A DNA stretch of 64,000 nucleotides from Methanolobus psychrophilus R15 (lineage in GTDB: Archaea > Halobacteriota > Methanosarcinia > Methanosarcinales > Methanosarcinaceae), in NCBI GenBank assembly GCA_000306725.1, contig CP003083.1, positions 2,716,042-2,780,041 on the forward strand, read 5' to 3'. This document shows, one piece after another, positions 2,240 to 35,580 of this stretch. The position numbers and the translations under genes are program-made. Position 1 is the first letter of the stretch. Each line of letters begins with the position of its first letter. The notes beneath the pieces were generated by a model, which did no database searches, had not been told where the DNA came from, and worked only from the letters and a program-made list of their open reading frames with translations.

Positions 2240-3013
2240 TTACATGTTCTTCTTACACAGGGGGCAGGCTTTTCCCTTGGTCGTCTGGATAAAGGAATGC
2301 TTAGGAGCAATACACTTGCATAGCGGACAGATCTCATTGGTCTTGAATATCTTCTCAACGGCCTGCAGGTCTGCCTCGTAGATGTGTGTGTCCCAGCCGG
2401 TGGCTATAAGTGATTCTATTTCATACGGGAGATTTTGCTCTTTGAAGACTTTTTTAACCCCTTCCACAATTGCAGGTATGTTGGCAGGGAACCCTCCGAA
2501 TGCATCCCATGATCGATAGAGGATGAACAGTCTGGCCTGTTTTTCCTCAAGGAGCTCTATCTTGTAGGCTATCCAGCAGGGCTGGTCCTCAAATTTGGGG
2601 ATGTGGATCTCGTTTTCCCAAAGCACGCCCACATGCCTCCTGGAACCGGGGCGCAGGTTTGCGACATTGGCACTCAGGGTATTATAAGCCGTTTCCCCAT
2701 ACCTGAACAGTTGTTTTGCATAGCAGTAATCGAATTTCCTTTTGTCATCCTCGGGGAGCGAAATATACCATTCTGCATACTCTTCAGTCAATTCTTCTTT
2801 ATATTTCTTAATAAGGTTCTCGCCGAAAGGAACCGCCTGATTGACCTGGTTGTTGTTCACGTCTTCAATATATATGGTCGCATGAACCCTTTTTGTCGTT
2901 GTTTTGTAATCCGGCTTGTGTTCCTCACCTTTCTTATATATCTCATATATGAGTTGTGACCATGCAGAAGAAATGCTTTTTGCCTTTATCAGTACAGCTT
3001 CCATTTTCATCAT
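2240..3013 (-). CDS. thyA: Archaeal thymidylate synthase with C-terminal zinc-knuckle tail
   Basis: Predicted to methylate dUMP to dTMP. The ThyA core motifs are visible: the nucleophile motif QPCW (Cys146), the dUMP-binding signature RSWDAFGGFPANI (residues 167-179, with Asn178), and WDTHIY (residues 197-202) matching the canonical D-x-HIY motif. At 257 residues it is near the usual family length. Unusually, the C-terminus adds CPLCKC (229-234) and CPLC (250-253), a likely zinc-binding tail. In methanogens the C1 donor is expected to be methylene-tetrahydromethanopterin or -sarcinapterin rather than folate; this is from family knowledge, not shown here. A TATA-like element (TTATATTAA on this strand, near 3096-3104) lies upstream. 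The start could also be Met4. Confidence 0.82.
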   Translation of the reverse strand: MMKMEAVLIKAKSISSAWSQLIYEIYKKGEEHKPDYKTTTKRVHATIYIEDVNNNQVNQAVPFGENLIKKYKEELTEEYAEWYISLPEDDKRKFDYCYAKQLFRYGETAYNTLSANVANLRPGSRRHVGVLWENEIHIPKFEDQPCWIAYKIELLEEKQARLFILYRSWDAFGGFPANIPAIVEGVKKVFKEQNLPYEIESLIATGWDTHIYEADLQAVEKIFKTNEICPLCKCIAPKHSFIQTTKGKACPLCKKNM

Positions 3014-3155
3014 TCCCTGTAGGCAGGCTTGCCATGCAATACGGAACCGGAGGTCATTTTAAAAGTTGGTTCCCCTGTTGAAAAGGTTTTCCGGGTTAAT
3101 ATAATTATCATTATTTGCTTTTTTCATCGAGACATGAGAGATGTGGTCAATGCCA

Positions 3156-4123: not shown

Positions 4124-5617
4124 ATGACTATGCAGATGGAATGGGCAGAAAAATACCGGCCACGGACACTTGCTGATGTCGTGGGCCATAAGAAATCGAT
4201 AGGGGAACTGCGTAAATGGGGTGACAGCTGGGCTCATGGTGCGCCTGATGTGAAGGCTGTGATCCTTCATGGACAGGCAGGTATCGGTAAGACTTCTTCC
4301 GCCCACGCCATGGCAGCAGACTATGACTGGGAGGTCATCGAGCTCAACGCGAGCGACCAGAGAACTGCCAGTGTGATAGAGAAGGTTGCAGGTTCAGCCT
4401 CTCAGATGCGTACTCTCACCGGCATGTCCGGAAAGAGGCTCATTATCCTTGATGAGGCAGATAACCTTCACGGCACCAGTGACCGCGGAGGTGCACGTGC
4501 GATAATCGATGTGATTAAGAATACCAGCCAGCCGATCATACTGATAGCCAATGACATTTACGGGATATCTTCTTCTGTGCGTGCACTCTGCCTGGAGATC
4601 AAGTTCCCTGCAATACAGGCGCGTTCCATGATTCCTGCACTTAAGGAGATCGCCAGGAACGAAGGACTCATGTGCGGCATCGGAGCCTTGGAAAAGATTG
4701 CTGAGAATGCGGACGGGGATTTCAGGAGTGCTGTCAATGACCTGCAGGCTGCAGCCATAGGTCGCACAGAGGTCCATCTGGAGGATATATCCACCGCCGA
4801 ACGAGACAATAAGGAGTCGGTCTTCAAAGTGGTAGGGAAGATATTCAAGGGCAAAAGCGTCAAGGCTGCCCTGGAAGCCAGTTACAGCCTGGATGAAACC
4901 CCTGAGGATCTTATCCAGTGGATAGATGAGAACCTGCCTAACCAATATACGGGCAAGGATGAGCAGAAACTCACTCCTGACATTGTGCAGGCCTATGCTT
5001 ATCTCTCGCGGGCCGACAGGTTCCTTGGGCGCGTACGCAAAAGGCAGAACTATCGGCTGTGGCGCTATGCCAGTGTACTTATGACAGGTGGTACCGTTGT
5101 ATCAAAGTCACGCCTGAGAGGTGGTTTTGAGAAATATCAGTCTCCCTCTCTGTGGAGGAAGATGGGGCAGATCCGTTCCCGGCGTAACATGAGGGACAAT
5201 ATTGCTTCCAAGATAGGTGCGCATAGTCATGAGTCCATGCGTTACTCCCGCACCCAGCTCTCCCGTGTATATTCCCGTCTGCTGGAGGATAATGATTATG
5301 CACCGGCTGTGGTTGCAAAGCTTGATCTTGATCAGGATGAACTGGCTCATATCACGGGTAATAAGAAACTGACAAAGAGGTTGCAGGATATTTATGACCG
5401 TTCAAGGGAACTGCGTCCTGGGCCGGAATCAGCTCCTGCTTTTTTCACCCCTCCTGCTGAGAGGGTGAAAATTCTCAAAAAGGGACCGGATCAGACCAGC
5501 CTGGATTCCCTTGTAATTGCTGAAGCCGCTGTTCAGAATACTAATTCCGGCAGCGAGGGCAATTCCAGCAGGAAGTCTGTTCAAAGAAAGCCTCAAAAGA
5601 CGCTCTTTGATTTTTAG
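4124..5617 (+). CDS. rfcL: Replication factor C large subunit
   Basis: The clamp-loader large subunit, which with RfcS loads the PCNA sliding clamp at primer ends. The N-terminal [11 protein letters not shown] motif is diagnostic. Walker A ([10 protein letters not shown], near residue 50) and Walker B (LDEADN) mark the AAA+ ATPase, followed by the RFC collar helical region. The last seven residues, QKTLFDF, form a PCNA-interacting peptide placed exactly at the C-terminus, after a Lys/Ser-rich linker. Length (497 aa) is normal for archaeal RfcL. Met3 or Met5 are possible alternative starts. Confidence 0.96.
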
Positions 5618-6184
5618 GTCTTCCTTTTTTATTTTGTTTGCATGCTTATTGCATATAGTATTCAGTTTCTATTGTGGCTGTGTGTTTCTCAATAGTGCAC
5701 ATATATATATATATGGATGTACTTTCATGTATATCTTAAAAAGTATATATCTGTACAACTACTACTTATCGTCTATATTTTGCTGTATGCTTGTCGTATA
5801 GCTTTTCATCATCCTCTCACCATGTCGAAAGCAGACTGTGCAGACAAGAGAGTCTCAGCATTAAAATTGGCAGTCAGGAGTTTGTCAGTGCACAAGAATC
5901 TAAAGTGGAGTATGAGCGGGTCGGGGAGTGGGGGTTATTGTCAAAAAGAAGATAACCCGCTCATCTACTTCCTATATATGTTGTTTTATGTATTTATATT
6001 TAGTGGTGTTCATCATAATAATGATGATAATCACTTCTATTCCACTATTAGTCTCAGAGGTATAGAAGTTTTATGCTGCTCTCATGTTCTCCCGGTGAGC
6101 TCAAATTCAGCAGTTGGTCATATTGTTTCTAAAAATAAAGAAAACTTCTAAATATCATGTATCCCACTCCTATGTGGTGATCTA
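5618..6184. other. 567-bp intergenic region between rfcL and the RAM gene
   Basis: The only structure I can support is the G/C-rich hairpin at 5912-5964, described separately. The flanks are AT-rich, with a short (AT)n run at 5701-5714. A 144-codon open frame at 5717-6151 lacks a ribosome-binding site, runs through the hairpin, and reads as low-complexity translated AT-rich DNA, so I do not call it a gene. Confidence 0.6.
5912..5964 (-). ncRNA. Candidate hairpin small RNA, copy A (C-rich loop)
   Basis: ATGAGCGGGT (5912-5921) and ACCCGCTCAT (5955-5964) form a perfect 10-bp stem around a 33-nt loop. On the minus strand the loop ends TAACCCCCACTCCCC. The same stem core and the same loop segment recur at 34999-35058 with a different flank. 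A TATA-like AATATAAAT lies on the minus strand at about 5992-6000, about 30 nt before the stem. Conservation of the hairpin but not of the flanks suggests selection on RNA (or a protein-binding DNA hairpin). Orientation is inferred from the TATA positions and is less secure than the structure. Confidence 0.5.
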
Positions 6185-6418
6185 ATGGTAATCGGAGTCA
6201 CAATGGTAAATGTGCTGCCTGGGAAGGAGCGAATAGCCTATAACGAGCTTAGCAGGATTGAAGGTATTAAGGATATATATCACGTCTTTGGTGAATATGA
6301 TTTTGTGGTCATAATTGAAGTTGAGGATCTTGGCCACCTTAATTACATAGTGGACCTTATACGTGAGACCGGGGATGTCACTGCGACCCAGACCATCGTT
6401 GGTGCTGAGCTCAAGTGA
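6185..6418 (+). CDS. Stand-alone Lrp/AsnC ligand-binding (RAM) domain protein
   Basis: A 77-residue protein that matches only the C-terminal regulation-of-amino-acid-metabolism domain of Lrp/AsnC proteins. It has the alpha-beta pattern VNVLPGKE, then GIKDIYHVFGEYDFVVIIEVED, then a final helix ending TATQTIVG. No DNA-binding helix-turn-helix is present. Such single-domain proteins usually form decamers or partner with full-length Lrp proteins as effector sensors. Its nearest neighbour downstream is top6B, 136 bp away, so it is probably a separate unit. Ligand and partner are unknown. Confidence 0.88.
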   Translation: MVIGVTMVNVLPGKERIAYNELSRIEGIKDIYHVFGEYDFVVIIEVEDLGHLNYIVDLIRETGDVTATQTIVGAELK

Positions 6419-6554: not shown

Positions 6555-8423
6555 ATGGCAACCCTTATTGCAGAAGAACTTGCGAAGAACCAGAAATCTA
6601 TCAGTGTTGCAGAATTCTTTGAGAAGAACCGGCAGATACTTGGTTTCGATTCCGCACCTCGCAGCCTGATAACAACTGTCAAGGAGGCAGTAGACAATTC
6701 TCTGGATGCCTGTGAAGAATCCCAGATACTGCCTGATATACTGCTGCACATCGAACGCTCCGGGAAGGATAACGTTGTTGTCATTGTCGAGGACAATGGG
6801 CCCGGCATAGTAAAGGAGCAGATACCCAAGGTATTTGCAAAGCTCCTCTATGGTTCAAGGTTCCATGCGCTCAAGCAGAGCAGAGGGCAGCAGGGTATAG
6901 GCATCTCTGCCTCTGTCCTTTATGCGCAGCTCACATCCGGCCATCCTGCAAAGGTCATCTCCAAGATAGGGCCCGGTAAACCTGCCCACTACTGCGAGCT
7001 GATGATCAACACCAGCACAAATGAGCCTGAGATCCTCAGGGACGAGGTCGTGGACTGGGACCGTCCTCACGGCACCCGCATCGAGCTGGAGATGGAGGCG
7101 GCTTATGTTAAAGGCAGGAGGCAGTCTATCTATGAGTATCTTAAGTCCACTGCGATTGTCAATCCCCACGCAAGGATTACTCTTTTTGAGCCTGATGGTA
7201 ATGAAGTGGTTTTCGAGAGAGCTACTGATAAGATGCCTGTGCCCGCAAATGAGATCCTTCCTCATCCTCATGGCATCGAGCTCGGGACGCTGATGAAGAT
7301 GCTGCGCTATACTGAGAGGCAGAAATTATCTCCTTTCTTACGCTATTCGTTCTCAAAGATAGGTCACTTGACAGCAGAAGAGATATGCAAGGCTTCGGGG
7401 CTAGATCCGGATATGGATCCTCATGAGATGAGCCGTGACCAGTCAAGGAAACTTCTTGACGCGTTCGCAAAGGTGAAGATAATGGCGCCTCCTACGGACT
7501 GCCTTTCTCCTATAGGTGAGGATCTCATCTATAAAGGACTTGAGAAGGAGTTCAGTGTGGATTTCATCGCCACGACCACCCGTGCACCGGCCGTCTTTTC
7601 CGGCAATCCCTTTGTTGTCGAAGTAGGCATAGCATATGGCGGCGCTCTCCATAAGGACGACCGAATCGAGATAATGCGTTTTGCCAACAGGGTCCCGTTG
7701 TTGTACCAACAGGGCGGCTGTGTCGCCACGCATGCAATAGAATCCATCAAATGGAAACAGTACGGTCTGAACCAGCCTGGTGGGGCTCTCCCAAGCGGCC
7801 CGGTAGTCCTGCTTATCCACGTAGCATCCACCAACGTTCCCTTCACTTCCGAATCAAAGGATGCCATAGCCGATATTCCTGAGATCAAAGATGAGATCGA
7901 GCTCGCGGTAAAAGAAGTGTCAAGGAAACTCAGCAGGTATCTAAGCAAGCAGGATACCCTGAAAAAGCGCCGTGAAAAGGAGATCATAATCACCAAGGTG
8001 CTTCCTAAAATGGCACAGAAGCTTGCGCAGACCCTTAAAAGAGAAACTCCTGACATAGGTCCGGTCGTAGCAAAGGTGATGGGTAATCTTCTTGTTCACA
8101 GGGTAGTGGAAAGCGATGGCAACGGCGGTGTGAATGTTGCCATAAAGGTGAAGAACTTCTCAGCAAAGAAATATGATTTTAAGGTACATGACATGCTGCC
8201 TTTCAATATAGAAGGTCCCGTACCTCAACCTAAAGTGATTGCAATGGGTAATGATTACGATTATATATGGGATGTGAGCATCTCCGCAGGAGCTTCCAAG
8301 GTCATCCGGTATTCCGTGGCAACTCTCAGTGACAGTGAAGTATCCAAGCTACCCGTATTGATAGTTGAAGGGCTTGACGAGGAACTTGTGACCGGCTCCA
8401 AAGCCATAAGAGGGGTGAACTGA
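6555..8423 (+). CDS. top6B: DNA topoisomerase VI subunit B
   Basis: The ATPase subunit of the archaeal type IIB topoisomerase. The GHKL ATP-binding motifs are present: a helix with EAVDNSLDA (N box), EDNGPGI (G1 box), and [19 protein letters not shown] (G2 region). The transducer domain follows, with the conserved Lys in the segment near [11 protein letters not shown]. At 622 residues the length is typical for Methanosarcinales. A GGAAG ribosome-binding stretch precedes the ATG. The gene is directly abutted by top6A: TGA at 8421-8423 is followed immediately by ATG at 8424, indicating a two-gene operon for the A2B2 enzyme. Confidence 0.97.
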
Positions 8424-33752: not shown

Positions 33753-34802
33753 TCAAACTTTTATGATCGAGCCGGCTGCTTTACGTATCCTGTTACTGAC
33801 GGCTTCACCGATGCCGTGGCGGCTGAAAGAACCGTCAACGAGTATAATGTCCACACCTCTTGCATCCAGGGAACGCAGTCCTGAGAATAAGTTGAAGGCC
33901 AGTTCAGCAGGCTTGTCCTTGCTACCCAGTGAGAGCTGGTCATCCTGATGGATGGTCATATTGCTCTCGTCCGTTAAAAGCAGTCCTACTTTCACTCCTG
34001 CGGATTCATATGTCTTAAGCATCTCCTGTATCCTGCGGGCTACGTTGGCACTTGCTCCTTCGATGAGTATCACGGTTGCATCGGGCGCATAGTGTGTGTA
34101 CTTCATTCCCGGGGAACGGACAGCTGCTGAGTCCGGATGACTCCCATCCATATATCCTGTTGTTATACTCCCTATCTCCTTCTCTATATCCTCCCGGCTT
34201 ATCCTGCCGGGTCTGAGTATGGCAGGTACCTGCAATGTCATATCTATGACTGTTGACTCCAGGCCTATCTCTGCGGTCCCGCCATCAATAACTGCATCTA
34301 TCCTACCGCAGAGGTCTGAAATGACGTGCTGTGCGGTTGTAGGGCTTGGCTTTCCGGAAAGGTTGGCGCTGGGGGCCGCGAGGGGCTTTCCTGACACCCT
34401 TATTATCCCGAGTGCTATTTCGTTGTCGGGCATTCTCAGGGCAACTGTACCCAGCCCGCCTGTTGTCACATCAGGCACGATTTCCTGTCTTTCCAAAATA
34501 AGCGTGAGAGGGCCGGGCCAGAATTTATCCATAAGCTTAAAGGCTTTCTCAGGGATATTACGGGCAAGCTCGCAGCATTGCTGCTTTGAGCAGATGTGCA
34601 CTATGAGAGGGTTATCAGCCGGCCGGCCCTTTGATTCAAAAATACCCCTCACAGCTTTTGCATCAAGTGCATTAGCTCCCAGACCGTAGACCGTTTCAGT
34701 CGGGAAAGCCACCAATCCCCCATCATCAATGATGGCTGCAGCTTCCTTTAAAGTGTCATGGAAGTTGCTTTTATTGATGGGGAATATTCGGGTTCTTGTC
34801 AT
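33753..34802 (-). CDS. sua5: Threonylcarbamoyl-AMP synthase (Sua5/YrdC)
   Basis: Makes threonylcarbamoyl-AMP from threonine, bicarbonate and ATP for the t6A modification of tRNA. The YrdC domain is clear: GGLVAFPTETVYGLGANA, KGRPADNPLIVHI, and ALRMPDN with SAPSANLSGKPSPT. The last 120 residues, from PGMKYTHYAPD on, are the Sua5-specific C-terminal domain, so this is the long Sua5 form (349 aa). The gene stands alone upstream of a small membrane gene. Confidence 0.96.
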   Translation of the reverse strand: MTRTRIFPINKSNFHDTLKEAAAIIDDGGLVAFPTETVYGLGANALDAKAVRGIFESKGRPADNPLIVHICSKQQCCELARNIPEKAFKLMDKFWPGPLTLILERQEIVPDVTTGGLGTVALRMPDNEIALGIIRVSGKPLAAPSANLSGKPSPTTAQHVISDLCGRIDAVIDGGTAEIGLESTVIDMTLQVPAILRPGRISREDIEKEIGSITTGYMDGSHPDSAAVRSPGMKYTHYAPDATVILIEGASANVARRIQEMLKTYESAGVKVGLLLTDESNMTIHQDDQLSLGSKDKPAELAFNLFSGLRSLDARGVDIILVDGSFSRHGIGEAVSNRIRKAAGSIIKV

Positions 34803-35223
34803 GGGTCTGTTCTTTCAAAAACGGCATTTCTACCGAGCCCATTATGCATTAACAGGCAGATAAGTTTTGTGTTCCCGGCACTTCATTCAGATATGGTCCC
34901 ATTCATTCTAAACTATACGCAATAGTGGCTCTTCTTTCATAATTTTCGGCAAAACAAAATAACAATGCTTATATACGATAATGACTTCTATGCTCTCAGT
35001 GAGCGGGTCTATTTTTAACCCCACTCCCACACTAACCCCCACTCCCCAACCCGCTCACAATAATATTCGGGGTAAAGTAACGGAGATTAAGTATCTAAAA
35101 ATTAAGTTTCCCAAAAGAGACAGTTTAGATTCATCCTTCATAATAAAGTGTGCCTCTCCTAGATTCAAGCCGTCAGGAACTAAAATCTGAAATGAAAATA
35201 TGTTTTGAGTGCTGTTCTGAAGG
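34803..35223. other. Intergenic region carrying hairpin copy B
   Basis: The 421-bp gap between the Sua5 gene and mrpG contains the hairpin at 34999-35058 and its TATA box, TTATATAC at 34969-34976. A 69-codon open frame at 34981-35190 runs through the hairpin and is low complexity, so I reject it. I see nothing else. Confidence 0.55.
34999..35058 (+). ncRNA. Candidate hairpin small RNA, copy B (C-rich loop)
   Basis: GTGAGCGGGT (34999-35008) and ACCCGCTCAC (35049-35058) are a perfect 10-bp stem around a 40-nt loop. The loop contains AACCCCACTCCC and then TAACCCCCACTCCCCA, the latter shared with copy A. A strong TATA box, TTATATAC at 34969-34976, is centred 26 nt before the stem, so the transcript should start at the stem. 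The opposite strand has four G-runs (GGGG, GGGGG, GGG, GGGG) with short loops, a G-quadruplex pattern. The C-rich loop could pair with G-rich ribosome-binding sites, but that is inference. Confidence 0.5.
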
Positions 35224-35580
35224 TTAGATTTGGCTCTCTTTCTCTCTCTTATTATCCTCTTCATATTCATCAGTTACAGAGTCCGTCCACATCTGGGTTC
35301 CACTTCTGTGGGCAGCTCTTGCTATCATGTGTGCTGCTACAGGAGCTGTCAGGAGCAGGAATATTCCGACAGTTATGGCTTTTAGGCCCATTGTCGAAAA
35401 GCCGGCCTTTATTGCGATTGCGAGCATGACACCAAAGGTACCAAGCGTCGCTATCTTCGTGGTTGCATGGAGACGGTTATACACGTCAGGCAGCCGCAGC
35501 AGGCCCACCATTCCCACGAACACGAACAATATGCCTGCTAAAAAGAACACATTGCCGATAATGTCGGTTGCAGTTGTCAA
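35224..35580 (-). CDS. mrpG: Mrp antiporter subunit G
   Basis: A 118-residue protein with three membrane helices: GNVFFLAGILFVFVGMVGLLRLPDVYNRLHA is the signature MnhG N-terminal region, and VGIFLLLTAPVAAHMIARAA follows. The tail is charged (EDNKREKE). It is the last gene of the seven-gene Mrp operon, 5 bp after mrpF. Confidence 0.95.
   Translation of the reverse strand: MTTATDIIGNVFFLAGILFVFVGMVGLLRLPDVYNRLHATTKIATLGTFGVMLAIAIKAGFSTMGLKAITVGIFLLLTAPVAAHMIARAAHRSGTQMWTDSVTDEYEEDNKREKESQI

Follow-up and report, generated by a model that had tools for sequence, protein, structure and literature searches.

What is the function of two dispersed hairpins that share a stem and a C-rich loop segment in the genome of the archaeon Methanolobus psychrophilus R15? 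A first-pass annotation of the window (the whole stretch of 64,000 nucleotides that was analysed) had interpreted them either as hairpin RNAs of a small family or as a regulatory dyad to which a protein binds. Our sequence comparisons indicate that both hairpins belong to a real, ancient and apparently unnamed family of small RNAs (sRNAs).

Two hairpins in the window and their paralogues

On the minus strand, copy A consists of ATGAGCGGGT, a 33-nt loop TATCTTCTTTTTGACAATAACCCCCACTCCCCG and ACCCGCTCAT. On the plus strand, copy B consists of GTGAGCGGGT, a 40-nt loop CTATTTTTAACCCCACTCCCACACTAACCCCCACTCCCCA that contains no G, and ACCCGCTCAC (Table 1). The positions and sequences of both hairpins and their 10-bp stems, as first annotated, were confirmed, and the loop segment said to be repeated between the two loci does recur, with TAACCCCCACTCCCC being exact in A and B. 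The minimum free energies are -16.4 kcal/mol for copy A, whose loop is unpaired in the predicted fold, and -17.3 kcal/mol for copy B. With our covariance model R2 the two copies score 64.4 and 53.3 bits, respectively, compared with only 14.9 bits for the next, unrelated match in the window. The stem pattern TGAGCGGGT(N25-55)ACCCGCTCA occurs twice in the window, while 0 occurrences are expected from 100 shuffles. When 464 kb were scanned for structure only, with a stem of 9 bp or more enclosing a G-free run as the criterion, copy B was the sole match; copy A was missed because its loop contains one G. The TATA-like element noted before stem A is real as well, and its position is also TATA-like in the Methanolobus orthologues.

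Table 1. Positions of the hairpins, their sequence elements, the neighbouring genes and the paralogous loci
Feature	Window position	Contig position	Strand	Remarks
Copy A hairpin RNA (putative)	5912-5964	2721953-2722005	-	5′ arm 5955-5964, 3′ arm 5912-5921, loop 5922-5954
Loop core TAACCCCCACTCCCC of copy A	5923-5937		-	exact also in copy B
TATA-like element of copy A (TAAATATAAATAC)	5990-6002		-	~26-38 nt before stem
Copy B hairpin RNA (putative)	34999-35058	2751040-2751099	+	5′ arm 34999-35008, 3′ arm 35049-35058, loop 35009-35048
First C-rich motif, loop B (TTAACCCCACTCCCA)	35015-35029		+	near-copy of TAACCCCCACTCCCC
Second C-rich motif, loop B (TAACCCCCACTCCCC)	35033-35047		+	
TATA box of copy B (TTATATAC)	34969-34976		+	~23-30 nt before stem
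Replication factor C large subunit (rfcL-like AAA protein)	4124-5617		+	left of copy A, convergent; Pfam AAA/Rad17
Lrp/AsnC ligand-binding (RAM) domain protein	6188-6418		+	right of copy A, divergent; Pfam AsnC_trans_reg
DNA topoisomerase VI subunit B	6555-8423		+	conserved neighbour of copy A; Pfam Topo-VIb_trans
Sua5/YrdC threonylcarbamoyl-AMP synthase	33753-34802		-	left of copy B, divergent; Pfam, synteny
Na+/H+ antiporter subunit MnhG	35224-35580		-	right of copy B, convergent; Pfam, synteny
Paralogue		399462-399536	+	
Paralogue		2877686-2877736	+	
Paralogue		351375-351425	+	
Paralogue		561347-561411	+	R2 E 1.2 (weak); stem pattern matched exactly
Paralogue		2838639-2838688	-	R2 E 0.4 (weak); stem pattern matched exactly
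Paralogue		~69763-69805	-	stem partly decayed; R2 E 0.014 (weak)
Paralogue		948157-948238	-	divergent, CCAACC repeats in loop; R2 E 1.7 (weak)

Hairpins of the copy A type have a conserved tail ACTCCACT(CC) 3′ of the stem (window 5900-5911, minus strand), which is a second single-stranded CUCC element. Their RNAs start with ATGAGCGGGTTATCYTCTTTTTGA (window 5941-5964, minus strand), a 7-codon frame MSGLSSF that is mostly kept within Methanolobus and lost in other genera. A leaderless micro-ORF was considered for the family as a whole and rejected: 55 of 88 stems begin with ATG or GTG, but indels in the loop disrupt the frame from one species to another, and ACG, GCG or AGG is found at the start of other members. 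The strand complementary to copy B (34999-35058, minus strand) has five runs of 3-5 G, from which a G-quadruplex might form at the DNA level.

The two hairpins had been described as a dispersed pair. Both are real, but they are not a pair, as seven more copies lie elsewhere in the genome. Searches with the loop core (two mismatches allowed), with R2 and with the stem pattern gave about nine loci including A and B, four of which are weak by R2 score (those at 69763, 2838639, 561347 and 948157). The stems of the paralogues differ (TGAGCGGGT, TTGCGCGGGT, AGGTGTGTG and GCGAACGGG), and the loop core is kept in all but the last. Copies B and E each carry two full loop motifs. Five paralogous loci (L127, L131, L128, L130 and L129) form an AGGTGTG subgroup with a stem of the AGGTGTGTG type; a promoter-region sequence (TTATA-GCG/TTG..., GTTAAC) is common to four of them and is present only in part at L128. 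Close copies of this stem type outside its own genome were seen in two genomes only (G049 and G056).

An RNA gene family of the Methanosarcinia

The search for further copies, which had been proposed together with the first reading, gave several hundred loci across the class Methanosarcinia in addition to the nine in the genome. With R2 the family was found in 220 of 238 Methanosarcinia genomes, in 148 of the 151 of good quality and in 35 of 39 genera; within the taxonomic family of the host, 101 of 112 genomes were positive. All 84 sampled members of the class were positive, compared with none of 309 genomes from the same phylum outside the class. When the exact pattern was searched over all GTDB species genomes, 79 of the 80 loci fell into Methanosarcinia and one into Paenarthrobacter. 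These 79 loci, two of which are titled only 'uncultured archaeon', span Methanolobus, Methanomethylovorans, Methanococcoides, Methanohalophilus, Methanosalsum, Methanosarcina, Methanothrix, Methanocrinis, Methanoperedens and ANME-2. The 13-mer AACCCCCACTCCC is present in all 27 Methanolobus genomes, two to six times in each, while the reversed control occurs once in those 27. Genomes of one taxonomic family of the class (f5) have up to 12 copies. Three genera (g6, g8 and g28) gave no R2 match in any genome searched; these genera are represented by small genomes of 0.8-1.8 Mb, most of them incomplete, and the absence is possibly due to loss on genome reduction. A family of hairpin RNAs is supported by its copies and its covariation, but it is far larger and older than the word 'small' had suggested.

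The genomic places of the copies are kept as well. The copy A type is located between rfcL and an Lrp-like gene with top6B in Methanolobus, in Methanomethylovorans-like genomes and in other genera; rfcL adjoins this type in at least six genera, often together with top6B, and homologues of rfcL or top6B adjoin members in genera g1, g9, g11, g14, g4 and g13 (presumed Methanosarcina). Copies of the B type are flanked by sua5 and by mnhG, a gene of the Mrp antiporter, both in Methanolobus and in further genera. At L304, L307, L163, L173, L166, L099 and L094 the RNA gene occurs twice in tandem with a spacing of about 200-700 nt, and in several of these pairs (e.g. L163 and L099) a TATA box precedes each copy. 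A likely divergent member (L109) was seen in presumed Methanosarcina (g13; G082:C1:2248375-2254375, ~2960-3030). It has a stem, GGGCATCTGA/TCAGATGCCC, unlike all others, AAACCCCCACTCCCAAACCACTCC in its loop and a TATA box upstream, and it scores below the R2 threshold.

Compensating changes in the stem, for which a check had been suggested, are frequent. Among 88 members, retrieved through the loop core or R2 and aligned by a fit to R2 that favours the stem somewhat, standard pairs make up 95.5% of the stem cells, compared with 24-46% after shifting the partner by 1-3 columns. In the same members, two-sided changes occur in eight of the ten stem pairs and amount to 89 cells, against a shuffled mean of 15. 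The first 110 loci had been picked by the 13-mer loop core alone, and quite different stem sequences were found among them. In 77 of 84 members a TATA-like box is present at -36 to -20 relative to the stem, while 3-11 were counted in non-overlapping control windows. A run of four T within 40 nt past the stem was found in 56 of 88 members, whereas a control stretch of about equal length gave 16 of 88; since a clear T-run terminator is seen in only these 56, the 3′ end of the RNA is uncertain. Nearly all members are intergenic (83/85), and in 60 of 81, both window copies included, the next downstream gene lies on the opposite strand. This placement indicates stand-alone small-RNA genes rather than leaders, and in combination with promoters at a fixed distance it favours an RNA gene over the protein-recognised dyad of the first-pass annotation. 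As far as sequence can tell, the loci almost certainly represent an RNA gene family.

An element that acts at the level of DNA without RNA function, whether a dyad bound by protein or a mobile repeat of the MITE type, might account for the dispersed copies, the paralogue groups and the tandem pairs, and its G-rich complementary strand could form a quadruplex. However, the paralogue stems differ with compensation, which would be needless for a protein reading DNA sequence, the promoter is found at a fixed distance, and the same genomic place is kept across genera. We consider this explanation very improbable. Still less credible is a 5′ leader, attenuator or riboswitch of the downstream gene, which the promoter upstream of a stem-loop with a U-run would suit, but which disagrees with the orientation of the downstream gene in most members and in both window copies and with the varying types of this gene among copies.

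What the exposed loop may bind

The loops of the 88 members are 23-72 nt long and consist of 44% C, 28% U, 27% A and 1.6% G. They are conserved as sequence: a U-run, present in all 88, is followed by ACCCCCACUCCC adjoining the 3′ arm. The core ACCCC(C)ACUCCC is found in 74 of 88 members, and 80 of 88 loops have at least two C-tracts of at least four. Folding predicts the loop to be open and single-stranded, and according to this model the hairpin design is a clamp presenting a single strand. The U-run could be a site for SmAP (Lsm) proteins.

We favour, with fairly good confidence, an explanation in which the family consists of stand-alone hairpin RNA genes with their own TATA promoter and with the single-stranded loop as a binding site. 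Copies A and B would be genes for hairpin RNAs of ~55-70 nt, whose transcription we infer, starting at or just before the stem from the TATA promoter. A stem of 9-11 bp, free in sequence if paired, would close a G-free loop and hold it single-stranded, so that the U-run and one to several C-tracts (ACCCCCACUCCC) would be displayed as a putative binding site. The RNA presumably acts in trans, and its exposed C-rich loop probably binds a partner. A candidate for this partner is an RNA-binding protein that reads C-tracts; the RNAs might sequester or deliver it, and the number of genes and motifs might set its dose. Among the mechanisms considered, a protein-bound loop with sequestering or delivery appears the most likely one, at somewhat less than even chances. 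We know of no archaeal C-tract-binding protein that has been identified.

Next in likelihood is pairing of the loop with a few G-rich mRNA sites, a possibility to which we give about one chance in three. The RNA would then be a trans-acting antisense sRNA that pairs with G-rich mRNA leaders, including variants of the Shine-Dalgarno (SD) sequence (GGAGU), and blocks translation in the manner of the bacterial LhrC and cuckoo sRNAs. A G-free, C-rich loop that is predicted to be single-stranded would suit this role, and masking of the ribosome-binding site (RBS) is known for the archaeal sRNA162 and sRNA154 (PMC3510493; PMC5867862). GGAGT and GGGGT, the complements of loop words, are enriched about 4-5-fold before gene starts, but roughly to the same degree as other purine-rich words. 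Moreover, when the loops of copies A, B, G and E were tested for pairing with 353 start regions, which a simple rule had called in a 400 kb sample of genome stretches, they did not outperform shuffled loops and in most cases fell behind them (z +0.9 to +2.6). In the same duplex test an artificial anti-SD loop used as control reached a z of -1.4, and because this control is modest the test has limited power. Within that power the test argues against anti-SD pairing as a general role, and a few specific mRNA targets remain compatible with it. Across the 27 Methanolobus genomes we found no conserved full-length complementary site. One candidate target, rtcB, appears not to be conserved: its codons for GGVGFD (contig 2239141-2239154) are the exact complement of a loop motif of copy E (GGGGAGTGGGGTTT), but at nine other loci with that 14-mer that were inspected it belonged to another copy of the sRNA or to an unrelated site, and in no case to rtcB. 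Since the loops pair with RBS regions no better than shuffled ones and no conserved antisense site is seen, a protein, or a few specific mRNAs, is favoured as partner. For a motif that is conserved in sequence throughout the class and repeated in loops, with no matching site in mRNAs, protein recognition is the better fit.

Comparison with known small RNAs

No match in the window reached the gathering score of Rfam 15, and when 11 member loci were searched with E values up to 1 only tRNAs and one chance match to mir-297 were found. The literature that we searched, with subscription papers and supplements outside its scope, contained no earlier description of the motif. An sRNA family that spans nearly all Methanosarcinia is thus absent from Rfam. 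To our knowledge, few archaeal sRNAs are conserved beyond a genus.

The closest candidates for a known counterpart come from the same species. From M. psychrophilus R15, Li et al. (2015) reported a set of nine sRNAs that are induced by cold and highly conserved, for which the main text gives a shared upstream 'cold box' and neither sequence nor structure; the same source shows that dRNA-seq data of R15 exist (PMC5378194). The two sets have much in common, both being multi-copy, intergenic small RNAs of the same species and both numbering nine, so that the loci described here might be those of Li et al. and hence known transcripts in cold adaptation (PMC5378194); we regard this identity as quite possible, at chances somewhat below even. 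On the other hand, no upstream 'cold box' is clearly common to all nine loci here. The best upstream 9-mer, found in seven of nine loci, is the AT-rich ATATTTATA, where shuffles reach five; ATATTTATAGCGACAA is exact at copies F and G only, and a promoter-region sequence is common only to a subgroup of up to five copies. That the organism is the same is supported by the RNase J of this genome, which is identical over 447 residues to PDB 5haa. This entry is one of a group of near-identical ones whose molecule name includes MPY-RNase J, and we take MPY to mean M. psychrophilus. The genera that carry the family include some with thermophilic members, and therefore cold cannot be its basic role. 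If the two sets are the same, transcription in R15 has already been shown by Li et al. (PMC5378194), and the class-wide family, its structure and its loop are still undescribed in the sources searched.

Among other archaeal sRNAs, sRNA162 of M. mazei has 191 nt and three stem-loops, has homologues only in Methanosarcina and pairs with the RBS of MM2441 (PMC3510493). Together with sRNA171 it resembles the family described here as an intergenic archaeal sRNA with a paralogue, and sRNA162 acts in trans (PMC3510493). Unlike sRNA162, the present family has a single stem whose loop is G-free, and its spread is class-wide. M. mazei sRNA154, which is nitrogen-specific, has two functional loops, one of them with an anti-RBS sequence (PMC5867862). 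Both sRNA154 and our family are loop-based and archaeal; an anti-RBS mechanism is unsupported for the loop here.

Two bacterial systems offer further parallels. The LhrC and cuckoo (CIN1) sRNAs are multi-copy, and their C-rich loop motif mimics an anti-SD sequence. They are similar to the family described here (~9 loci in this genome) in that several paralogues expose the same C-rich loop motif. However, the sequence of the loop motif here is ACCCCCACUCCC, with no preference for start regions. The CsrB/RsmZ RNAs titrate CsrA/RsmE via GGA motifs in many hairpins. The likeness lies in repeated single-strand loop motifs, in their varying number and in gene redundancy, whereas the family here has C-tracts in one large loop and its protein partner is putative. 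By analogy, we tentatively propose, while considering it rather unlikely, that the family provides class-wide decoy or delivery RNAs that set the dose of a putative C-tract RNA-binding protein, as an archaeal counterpart of CsrB/CsrA. Methanosarcinia comprise methanogens that use acetate and methyl compounds as well as the methane oxidisers ANME-2 and Methanoperedens, and if the analogy were true a principle like that of CsrB/CsrA would operate in both. As the same RNA is present in the genetically tractable Methanosarcina and in a psychrophile, a general post-transcriptional regulator or a C-tract-binding protein is directly testable.
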